A stretch of DNA of 64,000 nt, from the NCBI GenBank assembly GCA_951812925.1, contig OX638368.1:113979309-114043308 (forward strand). Direction: 5' to 3'. Positions 11,063-56,711 of this stretch are shown here, piece after piece. The notes below the pieces were generated by a model that was not told where the DNA came from, did not search any database, and saw nothing but the letters and a program-made list of their open reading frames with translations. How positions within the stretch are numbered: the stretch's first letter is position 1; the number at the start of each line of letters is the position of its first letter. The stretch is from Calliopum simillimum. Taxonomy: Eukaryota; Arthropoda; Insecta; Diptera; Lauxaniidae. Both the position numbers and the translations under genes were made by a program.

Positions 11063-12089
11063 AATGCTGTACAACTTAAAAACCGGAATTTTTTAGCGAA
11101 ATTTGATGCTTTATTGTGGAAAAATGTTACAATATATTTTATTCAAAGTATTGTCCATTGGAAGCTACAACATTTCCCCATATTTCAGGCAATTTATGAA
11201 TTCCAACCCAAAAAAATTGCGCCGGCTTGGCGGCCAAAAATGAATCGAGCCAATTTCGGATGCCTTGATCTGATGTGAAGCGTATTCCGGTGAGGGCGTT
11301 TTGCATCGAGCGAAATAAATGAAAGTCAGACGGAGCAAGGTCTGGATTATAAGGCGGGTGAGCCAAAACTTCCCATCCACTATTTTCCAAATAGTTTTTC
11401 ACGGGTCTTGCAACATGCGGCCGAGCGTTGTCATGATGAAAAATAATTGCTTCGTGTCTGGTCGCATTTTCCGGGCGTTTTTCGATGATGGCACAGGTCA
11501 CCTGTGATTGTCTGGCCCGATTTCAACAACTCATAATATAACGGCCCCTTCTGATCCCACCAAATACATAGCATAACCTTGGCGCCATGGATATTTGGCT
11601 TCGAGGTTGATTTGGCTGGTTGGCCGGGTTTCACGTATGACTTTTTGCGCTTGGGATTGTCATAATGGATCCATTTTTCATCCCCAGTCACAATCCGATG
11701 CAAAAATGATTTGTTTTTATGGCGCTCAAGCAGCATTTCAGACATACAGAAGCGCCGTTCAACGTCTCTCGGCTTCAACTCGTAGGGGACCCAATTACCT
11801 TGCTTTTGAATGTATCCGGCGGCTTTCAAACGTTTCGAAATGGCTTGCTGAGTCACTCCCAACGATTTGGCAAGCTCGTCTTGTGTTTGACACGAATCCT
11901 CATCGAGTAGCAAGTTATTTATCGTGAAAAATAATAATGATGCACACAAGATAAAATTGTTTTGTTGACTGATTTTGACAGCTGTCAAATGTACCTTCAA
12001 AATGACATATATATAAAGTTCGAGCTTTCACGATATTTGTTAGTACGGACATCCACCGTCAAATTCCGGTTTTTAAGTTGTACACCCAA
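11063..12089 (-). mobile_element. Mariner element copy 1 (defective)
   Basis: The right boundary is clear: the terminal inverted repeat, read on the minus strand as TTGGGTGTACAACTT..., abuts TA at 12090-12091. The left terminal repeat (GTACAACTTAAAAACCGGAA, from 11069) is eroded at its outermost 6 bp, so the 11063 edge is inferred by alignment with copy 2 at 55810-56711. The first roughly 170 bp of the element match copy 2 almost exactly, including the untranslated region before the transposase. About 1.03 kb remain of a family normally near 1.3 kb. Confidence 0.9.
11139..11960 (-). pseudogene. Mariner transposase pseudogene (copy 1)
   Basis: A DNA-cutting DD34D transposase of the Tc1/mariner superfamily, read on the minus strand. 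The sequence shows a helix-turn-helix remnant ([20 protein letters not shown]), the WVPYELK linker, the first catalytic Asp in [12 protein letters not shown], the second in [11 protein letters not shown] and the third in NPDLAPSDFHLF. Exactly 34 residues separate the last two. It ends with WGNVVASNGQYFE, typical of mariner. Two lesions inactivate it: a deletion removes about 75 N-terminal codons (the first helix-turn-helix), and a short deletion near 11500 shifts the frame between GDLC and the KRPEN segment. Copy 2 keeps the N-terminus but lacks the middle. Confidence 0.9.
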
Positions 12090-15086: not shown

Positions 15087-15136
15087 ATCAATACACGATT
15101 TGGCCTTAATTGAATTGTGTCCATTGGCAGCGCCAG
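15087..15136 (+). promoter_or_regulatory. Conserved promoter/5' UTR block, FABP gene 1
   Basis: AATCAATACACGATTT and, about 18 bp further, GTCCATTGGCAGCGCCAGT. Both phrases have clear counterparts at 18921-18966 before FABP gene 2, at nearly the same distance from the ATG (115 versus 107 bp). This supports shared core regulation or recent common ancestry of the promoters. Confidence 0.55.
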
Positions 15137-15202
15137 TACAGAAGTTTTTTCAACGGTTTTTTAAATTTTTTCAAGTACTTCAACTTCAACTTAATCTTCA
15201 CA

Positions 15203-15598
15203 ATGGCTGTCTGGGAAGGAAAGAAATACAAATTGGAAAGCAGTGAAAACTTTGATGAATACATGAAGGCTGTCGGTGTTGGCATGGTCCTACGTAAAGT
15301 TGGTAACAGCACTAACCCAACTGTTGAATTGTCAAAGAATGGCGATACCTATACATTCACAACAATTACACCATTGAAGACATCAAGCATCAGCTTCAAA
15401 TTGGGTGAAGAATTTGAGGAGGAGACTCTTGATGGACGCAAGGTACGCAGTATTATTACTTTGGATGGAAATAAATTCACACAAGAGCAAAAAGGTGACA
15501 AGCCCACAACAATTGTACGTGAATTCACCGATTCCAAATTGATTACAACACTGACAATTGGTGATGTTGTAGCGACCAGAAATTATGTAGCTGCCTAA
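15203..15598 (+). CDS. Fatty-acid-binding protein (FABP), gene 1
   Basis: A 131-residue cytosolic lipid-binding beta-barrel protein of the FABP/CRABP family, which carries long-chain fatty acids inside the cell. Length is typical. The N-terminal signature (GKKYKLESSENFDEYMKAVG, residues 6-25), the LKTSSISFKLGEEFEEETLDG segment and the end DVVATRNYVAA fit the family. The carboxylate-binding residues Arg106, Arg126 and Tyr128 are all present. The start at 15203 has a good fly context (CACAATGG) and gives the standard N-terminus; the frame runs open further upstream but that is 5' UTR. The gene is uninterrupted by introns, unlike the usual four-exon family layout. It lies about 3.4 kb upstream of a paralogue on the same strand. 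Confidence 0.96.
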   Translation: MAVWEGKKYKLESSENFDEYMKAVGVGMVLRKVGNSTNPTVELSKNGDTYTFTTITPLKTSSISFKLGEEFEEETLDGRKVRSIITLDGNKFTQEQKGDKPTTIVREFTDSKLITTLTIGDVVATRNYVAA

Positions 15599-18983: not shown

Positions 18984-19028
18984 TTTAGTAAATCCAAGTT
19001 TTAGTATTTTTTAAATACCAAATTAAAA

Positions 19029-19424
19029 ATGGCCTGCTGGGAAGGAAAAAAATACAAATTGGAGAAGAGTGATAACTTCGATGAATACATGAAAGCTGTT
19101 GGTGTTGGCTTAGTTCTACGTAAAATCGGCAATAGCACAAGTCCAACTGTTGAGCTAACTAAAAATGGTGACACCTATACGCTAACAACATCATCAACGC
19201 TGAAGACTTCGACCATAACCTTCAAATTGGGTGAAGAATTTGAGGAGGAAACTCTCGATGGACGCAAGGTTCGCTGTGTTGTAACTTTGGATGGTAATAA
19301 ACTGATCCAGGAGCAAAAAGGTGACAAGCCATCGACAATTGTACGTGAATTCACCGATACATCATTGATTACCACGCTGACTCTTGGTGATGTTGTATCA
19401 GTCAGAACATATACAGCTGTTTAG
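19029..19424 (+). CDS. Fatty-acid-binding protein (FABP), gene 2
   Basis: A 131-residue FABP paralogue of the gene at 15203, in the same orientation. By eye it differs at about 27 of 131 positions (about 79% identity) with no gaps. Arg106, Arg126 and Tyr128, which hold the fatty-acid carboxylate, are kept, as are the GKKYKLEKSDNFDEYMKAVG signature and the TLDGRKV turn. Cys3 and Cys83 differ from gene 1. It too is a single open exon from ATG to TAG. The ATG context (TTAAAAATGG) is acceptable. The reading frame is clean and the changes are mostly conservative, so it is likely functional. The lack of the upstream TATA box suggests different expression from gene 1. Confidence 0.96.
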   Translation: MACWEGKKYKLEKSDNFDEYMKAVGVGLVLRKIGNSTSPTVELTKNGDTYTLTTSSTLKTSTITFKLGEEFEEETLDGRKVRCVVTLDGNKLIQEQKGDKPSTIVREFTDTSLITTLTLGDVVSVRTYTAV

Positions 19425-29830: not shown

Positions 29831-30021
29831 GTTTCATCAATTCAACTTTTAGTAAACGGTCATACAATCTTCGAAGAATTTTCCATACTTTAAATTTTTT
29901 TATGTAATTTTTTTTGTATGTTTTTAGGTTGTGTCTATGCTTAGCTTTTTAATTCATCGATTCTAGCAATTTTTCGCCAAATCTCGCACTGAGGCAGTTT
30001 GATTTTATGTATATCAAAAAG

Positions 30022-30405
30022 TCTAATTTTTTTTTACTCAACATTGGCGCCCAACGTGGGGGTTCCACTTAACTTATTTATTACTTGTTGATTTAAAAAC
30101 CTAATTTTTTTTTACTCAACATTGACGCCCAACGTGGGGGTCACACTTTACTTATTTATTAATATTATTAATTTAAAAAATCTAATTTTTTTGACTCAAC
30201 ATTGGCGCCCAGCGTGGGGGTTCCACTTAACTTATTTATTACTTGTTGATTTAAAAACCTAATTTTTTTTTACTCAACATTGGCGCCCAACGAAGGGGTC
30301 ACACTTTACTTATTTATTACTTGTTGATTTAAAAACCTAATTTTTTTACTCAACATTGGCGCCCAACGTAGGGGTCACACGTTACTAATTTTTTTTTTTA
30401 CTCAA
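30022..30405 (+). repeat. Tandem array of five tRNA-Lys primer-binding-site segments
   Basis: Five units of about 76-80 bp, with TTGGCGCCCAACGTGGGG or a near copy starting at 30044, 30122, 30202, 30280 and 30356. TGGCGCCCAACGTGGGG is the complement of the 3' end of insect tRNA-Lys plus CCA, the primer-binding site of many LTR retrotransposons. Each unit also carries TTTTTACTCAACA before it and ACTTATTTATTACTTGTTGA after it. No LTR, gag or pol was found beside the array. Confidence 0.75.
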
Positions 30406-40479: not shown

Positions 40480-40623
40480 GACATTTATTAAAAAAAAAAA
40501 TTGATTTTATTTAATTGAACTTTTAGTCATATATTTGCAAAGATCGATTTACATATAAATCTATCAATGCATTTTTCTAACACATAATTATGACAAATCA
40601 AGGAACGGATTAAAAACACGGCT

Positions 40624-40670
40624 ATAGTGACATATGTTTCGTCTTTCGCCACAAAGACTCATCAGACTAA
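40624..40670 (-). ncRNA. Hammerhead ribozyme, minus strand (left arm)
   Basis: Mirror of the plus-strand ribozyme. On the minus strand: CUGAUGA (complement of 40659-40665), a 6-bp stem II, GAAA (complement of 40637-40640), CAUAUG, then the GUC cleavage triplet. Stem I is one pair shorter (4 bp) because its 5' side reads UUAGU. Type I topology. Confidence 0.65.
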
Positions 40671-40759
40671 TATCAATAAATAACACAAAAACAACAATTA
40701 TGATATATCAATACGTATTAACACACAAATAAAACTGGCAAAAAGTCGGCTTCGCAGCC

Positions 40760-40828
40760 GGGCAAGGCTGGTGCAGTGGTAACGACTTCTGCTACCAACC
40801 TGGAGATCCTTGGTTCGTCTCCCGCCCA
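40760..40828 (+). ncRNA. tRNA-like sequence (Pol III A and B boxes)
   Basis: The A box (TGGTGCAGTGG, 40769-40779) and B box (GGTTCGTCTCC, 40812-40822, one or two changes from GGTTCGANTCC) are 32 bp apart, as in tRNA genes. The ends GGGC and GCCC can pair, but the acceptor stem is otherwise poor. It is best seen as a tRNA-derived promoter of a SINE-like element, not a working tRNA. TTTT runs at about 40849 and 40863 would tend to stop Pol III before the right-arm ribozyme. Confidence 0.6.
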
Positions 40829-40916
40829 GACCAAAAAACACAAAAAGTTTTCAAACTTGCAATTTTTCAATTATAATTAATTTAGTAAAATAAATATAAT
40901 TATAATTACAACAAAA

Positions 40917-40963
40917 ATAGTCTGATGAGTCTTTGTGGCGAAAGACGAAACATATGTCACTAT
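40917..40963 (+). ncRNA. Hammerhead ribozyme, plus strand (right arm)
   Basis: All conserved parts are present in order. Stem I 5' side AUAGU (40917-40921); CUGAUGA (40922-40928); stem II GUCUUU/AAAGAC (40929-40934 with 40941-40946) with loop GUGGCG; GAAA (40947-40950); stem III CAUAUG (40951-40956), two pairs and itself a palindrome; triplet GUC (40956-40958); stem I 3' side ACUAU (40959-40963), fully complementary to AUAGU. Cleavage would fall after C40958. This is type I topology with a minimal stem III, the form found in Penelope-like elements, which can act as dimers. Confidence 0.8.
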
Positions 40964-41104
40964 AGCCGTGTTTTTAATCCGTTCCTTGATTTGTCATAAT
41001 TATGTGTAAGAAAAATGCATTGATAGATTTATATGTAAATCGATCTTTGCAAATATATGACTAAAAGTTCAATTAAATAAAATCAATTTTCAATATAAAA
41101 TGTC

Positions 41105-41250
41105 ATTAAGTAACACACTTAAAAATTCTTAAAAAAAAAAAAATAGTAAACTTTTCTGCAAGAAGAAATTTTAAATGATTTAAAAAAACACGCATTTCAC
41201 TCTTCATTTAAACACAACAGCACTTTTGATCAGCATATCAATTTTCCAAC
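41105..41250. other. Gene-free AT-rich stretch
   Basis: No gene; A runs only. Confidence 0.4.
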
Positions 41251-41420
41251 ATGGCATCCCATATGATATGGCACCCCCATATGATATGGCACCCCCATAT
41301 GATGTGGCACTCCCATATTATATGGATCCCCATATGATATGGCACCCCCTTGTGACATGGCAGCCCCATATGATATTGCACTCCCCATGTGATATGGCAC
41401 CCTCATGTAATTTGGCACCC
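41251..41420. repeat. Minisatellite, 19-20 bp unit CCATATGATATGGCACCCC
   Basis: About nine imperfect units. The unit contains CATATG and near-palindromic text, so both strands show long proline/tyrosine-rich frames that are not genes. Confidence 0.8.
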
Positions 41421-41424
41421 CTTT

Positions 41425-42263
41425 CAATTTCAATATTTGTAGCTTTCGTAGCATTCAAGTATGGAAAACATATAATTCAGTTGCGCGAAAGACTGTGTGA
41501 TGAAAAGTTCGTTTAGCTCGCGATGCTATAGTGACTTGTGTGTGGGATCTAAAAAAAAAAAATTGGGACTGATATGGTGAATATACCAAAATAATCAAAA
41601 TTTAATGTGATTTCGTTGTCATATGAATACGAGCTTGACTGTTTATGCATTTCGTGCAATTTTGCGATTCAGTATATACCACAAAGGAGAAATGGCACCC
41701 ATTAACTGAAGTGATATATTGCCCCAATTACTGAGGATGATATATTGCCTCCCAACGGGAAGAAATGAAGCTGCTTCCAAAAAGGGCGCAATAGAAGCAC
41801 ATCTCTGGTAGCATACAAAATATTTTCAGATTCTATTTTTTTTTTTTATTTCTTATAAACTTTAATAAATCTTCCAAAACTTACAGAAAAAAAAAAAAAA
41901 TAGTTTCTTTGAAATGGAACTTAAAATTTTGAAAAACTTCTACGGAATCGTATTTCATGCTTCCAAATGTGTGATTCTACGGAAGCGTATTTGAAGCGTA
42001 TTTCATGTGCTTCTGAAGATGTGCATCTCCGCTAGGACATGCTGTGTTAAAAAAGATAAGCAGTGAGAACAGCACTGGAAGCATTTTCTTGCTTCCCTAG
42101 AAGCGCAACTAAAGTCGTTTCAATGCGCTTCCGTTTCCCGTTGGGCTGTGTCATTTCTCTTTTTGCTCGTCAGAAGATATTTGGGAGTACAATTATGAAG
42201 CTCTTGAACGTACCGTCATTCTAGAATCGCGGTATTTAAGTCAGGTAGGGCCTTCATTGATTG
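41425..42263. other. Gene-free stretch
   Basis: Echoes of the ATGGCACCC phrase occur at 41690 and of GATATATTGCC at 41718 and 41748. From 41930 to 42130 GCTTCC/GAAGC words are dense. No gene is seen. Confidence 0.4.
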
Positions 42264-43363: not shown

Positions 43364-43496
<133 letters not shown>

Positions 43497-43639
43497 AGAA
43501 GGAAATGGCTATATCGACTCAGGAGGTGACGTTGATCAAGAATATATATACTTTTCTATATCTGCCACGCCTCCTTCTCTGCGTTACAAACGGAAAGACA
43601 AAGTGAATATACCCTGGGTGTAGGGTATAAAAACAAAAT

Positions 43640-55809: not shown

Positions 55810-56711
55810 TTGGGTGTACAACTTAAAAACCGGAATTTGACGGTGGATGTCCGTACTAACAAATATCGTGAAAGCTCGAACTTTATATATATGTCATTTT
55901 GAAGGTACATTTGACAGCTGTCAAAATCAGTCAACAAAACAATTTTATCTTGTGTGCATCATTATTATTTTTCACGATGAATAACTTCAAAAATTGGAGA
56001 AAAAGACAGCATTTGCGGAGGGGTTCTAGTGGGTCATTTTTTTGCAAAGAAAACAGCTGCCGAAAGTCATGGCATTCTTGTAGAAGTTTATGGGGACTAT
56101 GCTCCAGCTGAATCAAGCTGTCGTGAGTGGTTTAAAAGTGGTTATTTTGATGTAGAAGACAAAGAACGTCCTGGTCAGGACCAGCTAGGTGTGATCCATT
56201 ATGAGCTGTTGCCAGGTGGCCAAACCATTAATGCTCAATTCTATCGTCAACAATTGATCCAATTGAAGCAGAAAATCCAGACAGAGCGGCCAACGTATGC
56301 GACCAGACATGAGTCAATCATTTTCCACCACGATAACGCTCGGCCACATATTGCTGCCCCAGTCAAAAATTACCTGGAAAACAACGGAAAACAACGGATG
56401 GGAAATTTTGCCTCACCCGCTTTATAGCCCAGACCTTGCACCATCAGACTACCATTTGTTCCGATCGATGCAGAATGCCCTATCAGGAATACGCTTCACT
56501 TAAGTTCAAGATATCGAAAATTGGCTCGATTCATTTTTGGCCGCCAAGCCGGCGCAATTTTTTTGGGATGGAATTCATAAATTGCCTGAAAGATGGGGAA
56601 ATGTTGTAGCTTCCAATGGACAATACTTTGAATAAAATATATTGTAACATTTTTCCACAATAAAACATCAAATTTCGCTAAAAAATTCCGGTTTTTAAGT
56701 TGTACACCCAA
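55810..56711 (+). mobile_element. Mariner element copy 2 (defective)
   Basis: Complete terminal inverted repeats: TTGGGTGTACAACTTAAAAA at the left and TTTTTAAGTTGTACACCCAA at the right, with TA at 55808-55809 and 56712-56713. The 902 bp are about 400 short of a full mariner. Its first 170 bp and last 150 bp match copy 1 at 11063-12089, so both come from one family. Intact ends suggest it could still be moved if transposase were supplied. Confidence 0.92.
55977..56635 (+). pseudogene. Mariner transposase pseudogene (copy 2)
   Basis: Starts at ATGAATAACTTCAAAAATTGG, then shifts frame near 56025. The next frame reads GHFFAKKTAAESHGILVEVY and DVEDKERPGQ, the N-terminal helix-turn-helix half. A deletion then removes the linker and the first catalytic Asp block (VTGDEKW in copy 1), joining directly to VIHYELLPGGQTI. 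The second catalytic block ([11 protein letters not shown]) and third (SPDLAPSDYHLF) remain, the latter after another frameshift near 56390. The tail WGNVVASNGQYFE-like end is readable. It is inactive, and its losses differ from copy 1. Confidence 0.9.

Follow-up and report, generated by a model that had tools for sequence, protein, structure and literature searches.

The window, i.e. the whole analysed stretch of 64,000 nucleotides from Calliopum simillimum, contains a palindromic feature with two inverted arms of 173 nt each (40497–40669 and 40918–41090), differing by one mismatch. The initial annotation had described these two nearly identical arms correctly and had placed the element at 40480–41104. 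Alignment with other genomic copies corrects this span to about 40497–40501 on the left and about 41128–41133 on the right, where the end is ambiguous within an A run, and puts the centre at 40669/40670. The parts of the feature are listed in Table 1; positions marked u refer to the repeat unit of about 545 bp described below. On the plus strand, the window copy (locus L060, offset +39591) reads from u258 round to u176, preceded by the inverted piece. It is not a full unit, because u177–u257 are missing. Taken alone, the possible target-site duplication of the window copy is weak, since it lies in an A run and its 13-mer is found 7 times in the window.

Table 1. Parts of the palindromic feature in the window, in window coordinates.
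Feature	Position	Strand	Remark
Possible left target-site duplication TTAAAAAAAAAAA	40488..40500		Low complexity
Short (S) inverted arm	40497..40669	-	u132 back to u505; outer end a putative short reverse-transcription start
Minus-strand hammerhead core	40629..40665	-	Stem I of 4 bp, cut down at the junction
Head-to-head junction, inverted arm (u505) / direct arm (u258)	40669..40670		Alignment to the unit
Long (T) direct arm	40670..41133	+	u258, tRNA-like head, body, hammerhead, leader, to u176; outer end a putative tail start
tRNA-like head	40760..40832	+	Contains the A-box-like and B-box-like motifs
AT-rich body, about u430–u504	40843..40917	+	95% identity over 75 nt to the second retrozyme-like family, L071
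Plus-strand hammerhead core	40922..40958	+	Predicted cleavage after 40958
Leader, cleavage site to short start, u1–u132	40959..41090	+	Unit alignment
Tail, u133 to about u176	41091..41133	+	AC-loop hairpin sequence at 41106–41122; at this end only
Possible right target-site duplication TTAAAAAAAAAAA	41129..41141		Second occurrence of the same 13-mer

Several other features are present in the window. A minisatellite with an 18-bp unit in about 9 copies (41258–41421) adjoins the insertion, and a CAGC tetranucleotide array of about 34 copies is located at 43364–43498. A tandem 78/158-bp repeat (30016–30391) contains TTGGCGCCCAACGTGGGG, which resembles a retroviral-type primer binding site. Two similar fatty-acid-binding-protein-like frames lie in tandem (15110–15598, recognised by Pfam, and 19005–19424, by eye), and fragments of mariner-type transposases are found at 11431–12027 (Pfam Transposase_1) and 55981–56427 (by eye).

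Each arm contains a full hammerhead core, as had been proposed, consisting of CUGAUGA, a 6-bp stem II, GAAA, a tiny palindromic stem III, GUC, and a stem I that has 5 bp in the plus-strand ribozyme and 4 bp in the minus-strand one. When both strands of the 64 kb are scanned with a descriptor, these two hammerheads are the only hits, while 60 dinucleotide shuffles of the 64 kb give a mean of 0.017 descriptor hits (maximum 1). A stretch of 17 nt at 41525–41541, 88% alike to the 3′ side of the ribozyme, was dismissed as a chance match with no adjoining hammerhead core. In the covariance-model and folding checks suggested in the initial annotation, the Rfam hammerhead scores are sub-threshold (22.7 and 20.4 bits against a cut-off of 48.5), with no match for the window feature at the gathering score, and the 53-nt ribozyme pieces fold like shuffled sequence (74/200 and 152/200 shuffles reach an equal or better free energy). 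The tRNA-like piece is likewise unexceptional by free energy, with 24 of 200 shuffles folding at least as well. Hence, these calls are based on the conserved core, the geometry and the copies. The whole palindrome is predicted to form a long hairpin of −330.5 kcal/mol against a mean of −101 in 20 shuffles, as expected from the pairing of the arms anticipated earlier.

Further genomic copies exist, as the annotation had suggested to check: a sequence search with the window copy yields at least 281 matching pieces in the same 690-Mb genome, a lower bound, with 40 of 1,228 first-look candidates scored and with the possibility that one insertion yields several pieces. Phage records gave no match. 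Forty loci were fetched, chosen by their match to the window copy, arrays first. Related copies often form head-to-tail arrays of a unit of about 545 bp with one hammerhead each, referred to below as the retrozyme. Complete units, taken between neighbouring ribozymes 400–600 nt apart, number 64 and come from 22 of the 40 loci; their length is exactly 545 bp in 27 cases and ranges from 487 to 558 bp, and their identity to the majority sequence is 94.7–100%, gaps uncounted. The unit is composed of a leader (u1 to about u130), a tail (to about u183), short hairpins, the tRNA-like head (about u348–u420), the body (u430–u504) and the hammerhead core (u509–u545). It has a GC content of about 32% and no LTR, PBS or PPT, as judged by eye on the consensus.

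No RT or GIY-YIG open reading frame is present in the unit. Its longest frame, 49 codons at u143–u289, is at chance level (113 of 500 shuffles reach 49 codons) and has no Pfam match; it was considered, and rejected, as the remnant of an ORF of a Penelope-like element (PLE). A protein search of the genome with this frame returned frames of 49–100 codons and no long PLE frame among the 150 of 1,046 candidates that were scored.

Arrays are somewhat homogeneous; opposite arms resemble one another no more than they resemble other loci. Same-strand units within one array differ by a mean of 2.9 substitutions (110 pairs; 1.5 without L022), units from different loci by 6.74 (1,884 pairs; 2.86 without L022, L023 and L033), and between the opposite arms at a locus the mean is 6.86 (22 pairs; 5.0 in the 8 pairs without L022). 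One substitution is common to all 10 units of L026, another to all 3 units of L030. Such array-specific variants are compatible with a single template for each array and also with later homogenisation. In L022, all nine complete units share changes at the ribozyme end that can be read from the alignment as a two-A insertion by GAAA, and units about 36 bp shorter are intermixed with full-length ones in both arms.

The initial annotation had also named a tRNA-like promoter between the arms, and this claim holds in part. An A-box-like motif TGGTGCAGTGG (40769–40779) and a B-box-like motif GGTTCGTCTCC (40812–40822) are present, matching 11 of 11 and 10 of 11 positions of the consensus; ARAGORN called no tRNA. 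As a Pol III promoter, the head is a likeness in sequence only, and TTTT at u435 and TTTTT at u450 intervene between the B box and the ribozyme (u509), so that transcription by Pol III should terminate short of the ribozyme. Pol III transcription of the whole unit thus appears doubtful, and the promoter of the full unit may be another one. The B-box half of the head is common, together with the body and a decayed hammerhead, to a second tandem family at locus L071, and an alignment of the heads only scores 46 against a maximum of 22 in 200 shuffles. The head therefore looks like a kept module and not like a chance insertion. The second family (L071:1–1000, minus strand) has a spacing of 472 bp, a related tRNA-like head, a 95% identical body and a decayed hammerhead, and adjoins a PLE.

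At 29 of the 40 loci the copies are arranged head-to-head (leftmost piece minus, rightmost piece plus), and the other 11 are one-way. Among classed composites the outer ends fall at two sites, S (u115–142) and T (u168–183); the intervals used for classing are wide (S 110–148, T 160–190), because AT-rich flanks blur the ends. Both ends could be classed in 22 composites, and every one of them pairs an S with a T end. Since L041 and L042 share flanks and represent one event, 21 of these are independent, which would have a probability of 0.5^21 = 5e-7 if the ends were even and independent. The same composite with the same flanks lies on two contigs in opposite orientation at L041 and L042, as a duplicated segment or as a copy inside another repeat. 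Seven of the 29 composites have one unclassed end (L022, L023, L032, L034, L036, L044, L049). For L023, the ends are u108 and u132 under one alignment setting, and u132 on both sides (a possible S/S pair) under another; the flanks of this locus are inverted copies of each other, and its palindrome reaches past the element. One-way copies have the T end in 10 of 11 cases and the S end in 1 of 11. The T ends displayed have no A-rich 3′ tail. As the loci were chosen by their match to the window copy, with arrays favoured, the head-to-head and array shares are not genome-wide figures; we see no way in which this choice would select the S/T pairing.

Exact duplications of at least 10 bp surround 19 of the 29 composites, compared with 1.4% of 810 mismatched flank pairs, with 8 bases of freedom allowed at each boundary in composites and controls alike; 10 of the 29 composites have no duplication of this length. 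Inverted arms vary in length, with about 51 nt in L030 at the lower extreme and kilobases in L026 at the upper, and the junction points differ. Fixed terminal inverted repeats, as in Foldback elements and MITEs, are not found, the arm lengths being variable and the two ends different.

Searching the genome for GIY-YIG produced 51 hits (E ≤ 1e-3), of which 30 were taken as loci; L062 and L063 (uvrC-like) and L061 (unclassed) were set aside. L062 and L063, on the small contigs C183 and C104, contain uvrC frames that look bacterial by eye and may belong to a symbiont or a contaminant. A hammerhead-like pattern is found in 23 of the 27 GIY-YIG loci L064–L090, and the surrounding sequence distinguishes at least four families, A–D. 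RT and GIY-YIG Pfam matches are present in pieces of families A–D, the RT of family D (28.4 bits) lying just under the cut-off of 29.6; frames of 841 codons occur in family D. Of six head-to-head PLE composites, five were retrieved. Both ends could be read by eye in four of these, which represent families A–D with one composite apiece, and each pairs a short with a tail end. The duplications of the four measure 13 bp (L069), about 15 bp (L083/L084) and 13 bp (L094/L095), and none is clear at L080. Another head-to-head pair, L081/L082, is left unclassed because its left arm shows no 3′ repeat. In end structure and duplications the retrozyme copies thus resemble PLE insertions, but they lack coding capacity.

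A motif, GGANNNCACGCC, connects the retrozyme with two of these families. In this motif a short GC stem closes an A...CACG loop; it is located at u185 of the retrozyme, just past the T site. Within the 100 kb of GIY-YIG loci retrieved, it is confined to two families, lying inside the tail in family A (L064, L067, L068, L069, L072) and just beyond the tail in family D (L092). There are 0 occurrences in the window, and none in the stretches of families B and C examined. It precedes the T site in family A and follows it in family D and in the retrozyme. Folded in isolation, the sequences of the retrozyme and of family A are predicted to form the hairpin, that of family D only in part. Beyond this motif, the retrozyme's own leader or tail sequence is present in no PLE stretch examined. 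Family D, considered as a source of the leader, was discarded with a match of 10 nt at most. Copies joined to Penelope RT/GIY-YIG sequence, for which a search had been suggested, are absent from the 30 GIY-YIG loci taken from the 51 hits; L071 has the related family beside a PLE. The earlier proposal of a non-autonomous, Penelope-linked retroelement with a type I hammerhead of the tiny-stem-III kind is upheld, the link being provided by the insertion structure and the hairpin motif.

We consider it very probable that the window feature arose by a single insertion of a non-autonomous retrozyme of the animal type, moved in trans by PLEs. The basis of this reading is observed: the unit, the arrays, the end classes, the duplications, the same signature in resident PLEs, and the shared hairpin motif. 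That this retrozyme has the insertion structure of a PLE is well supported. Points that count against movement by PLEs are the lack of its own leader or tail sequence in the PLE stretches examined, the restriction of the hairpin motif to families A and D and its differing place relative to the T site, the unclassed ends, the composites without a duplication of at least 10 bp, and the large unit. Transcription, cleavage, circles and the enzyme steps are what we infer for its cycle, as follows. Arrays of the 545-bp unit would be transcribed, and the small hammerhead of each unit would cut the transcript to unit-length RNA, which might circularise. A PLE protein with RT and GIY-YIG endonuclease would recognise the tail region and cut AT-rich DNA in a staggered manner, leaving 3′ overhangs of about 13 nt. 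Each 3′ end would then prime on retrozyme RNA. The tail start T (u~180) would be used by one of them and the short start S (u~130) by its counterpart, and both reverse transcriptions would run upstream through the ribozyme and round the repeat. Head-to-head joining of the two cDNAs would duplicate the target and leave arms in inverted orientation, with a tail on only one of the ends; without extension on one side, a simple tandem would be formed. The order of flank, duplication and cDNA fits such a break, with each overhang priming. Unequal arms and variable junctions would arise because each enzyme stops at its own point, and runs that exceed one unit could only come from a template that was multimeric or circular, or from amplification at a later time. 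With two cDNAs joined in this manner, the minus-strand ribozyme of the window would be an inverted copy made at insertion. It is best read as a by-product of two-sided reverse transcription, and not as a device for cutting both strands.

The palindrome with a ribozyme per strand had originally been taken as the design of the element, i.e. as a functional SINE-like or foldback unit whose transcript self-cleaves whichever strand is copied. Intact cores on both strands, and arms that differ at 1 of 173 nt, would be in line with such a unit. The repeating unit carries one ribozyme, however, and stem I of the minus-strand ribozyme is cut down at the junction; inverted arms vary from about 51 nt to kilobases with differing junctions, and 11 of 40 loci have none. 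We find a functional palindrome barely credible.

Two further explanations concern the origin of the inverted arms. Short duplications and inverted arms are also produced by twin priming during target-primed reverse transcription by a LINE, and SINEs that depend on LINEs usually have a tRNA-like head. These features would be compatible with movement of the retrozyme array by a LINE and not by a PLE. In twin priming, however, the inverted piece starts at a variable internal point, whereas the outer ends observed here fall at two preferred sites, with one end at each site in all 22 classed composites and likewise in the four PLE composites read from this genome; the lack of an A-rich 3′ tail at the T ends displayed also argues against a LINE, which makes this origin very unlikely. 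It is highly improbable, too, that the head-to-head form is secondary, produced when an array already in place recombined or was replicated. Some arrays do look homogenised, such as L026 with its substitution in all 10 units, and the inverted flanks of L023 extend beyond the element. A later inversion, however, would neither place a duplication of about 13 bp around the composite (at least 10 bp in 19 of 29) nor yield one S and one T end in every classed case (22/22).

The preferred reading, insertion of a retrozyme by the machinery of PLEs, can be compared with biochemical data. The purified protein of PAc, a lizard PLE, is reported to cut and extend both target strands, initiating from two sites inside the RNA that account for the optional tail (PMC11167929). 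In vitro, the start site of PAc shows no strand difference (PMC11167929), and the strict S/T rule is therefore not explained by the PAc study. The split between the two ends being stricter than for PAc in vitro, two copies of the enzyme may act on one RNA. We accordingly put forward, with evenly balanced confidence, that animal retrozymes are RNA parasites of PLEs, and that two reverse transcriptases, one acting on each target end, carry out every PLE insertion from different assigned start sites (short and tail), probably on the same RNA and possibly on a circle made by the ribozyme. Two reverse transcriptases with different assigned start sites would leave exactly one tail per head-to-head insertion.

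For rotifer PLEs, PMC3846280 describes inverted repeats, duplications of 8–10 bp and a tail on one inverted end. A 2020 review presents retrozyme repeats as having no conserved motif that helps to deduce an autonomous partner (PMC7761336). PLEs or their relatives have been proposed as likely movers of retrozymes on grounds of shared hammerheads, tandem copies and co-occurrence (PMC7761336 and PMC7229834). In the literature surveyed, as far as its text was available, no report of PLE-type ends on retrozymes or of a tRNA-like head in animal retrozymes was found. The mover of animal retrozymes was left unsettled earlier, and here the insertions themselves bear the signature of PLEs. The rule of one short and one tail end offers a countable prediction on the use of the two ends of a cut target by the PLE protein. 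Moreover, a palindrome with a ribozyme per strand can be an insertion scar, which calls for caution with similar features elsewhere.

Among known systems, tRNA-derived SINEs are similar in having A-box-like and B-box-like motifs and in that part of the head is common to a second family. The retrozyme differs from them by its tandem arrays, its ribozyme, its internal T runs and the lack of an A-rich tail at the displayed ends. A Pol III-like head is known from the schistosome element Sm-alpha. This repeated element with a type I hammerhead is likened here by its description in the available text of PMC8490949, which mentions no PLE end signature for Sm-alpha; in the retrozyme, T runs lie between head and ribozyme. 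Penelope/Poseidon-type PLEs with GIY-YIG, as presented in PMC11167929 and PMC3846280, share head-to-head composites, an optional tail at one end, small hammerheads, AT-rich targets and short duplications, and families A and D of this genome have the hairpin motif in common with the retrozyme. In contrast to these PLEs, the retrozyme has no RT/EN coding sequence. Metazoan non-LTR retrozymes (Cervera and de la Peña, 2020; PMC7229834, available text) are alike in the type I hammerhead, the tandem non-coding repeats, the many copies, the low GC content, the lack of visible LTR, PBS and PPT, the longer duplications and the presence of PLEs in the same genome. In comparison with that text, the family found in the window is distinguished by a very small palindromic stem III, the tRNA-like head, the PLE-type two-site ends and the head-to-head composites. 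The published units in the same text measure about 170–400 nt (criterion roughly 150–450 bp), against 545 bp here, a difference in unit size that we treat as a variant of the metazoan retrozyme and not as an exclusion.
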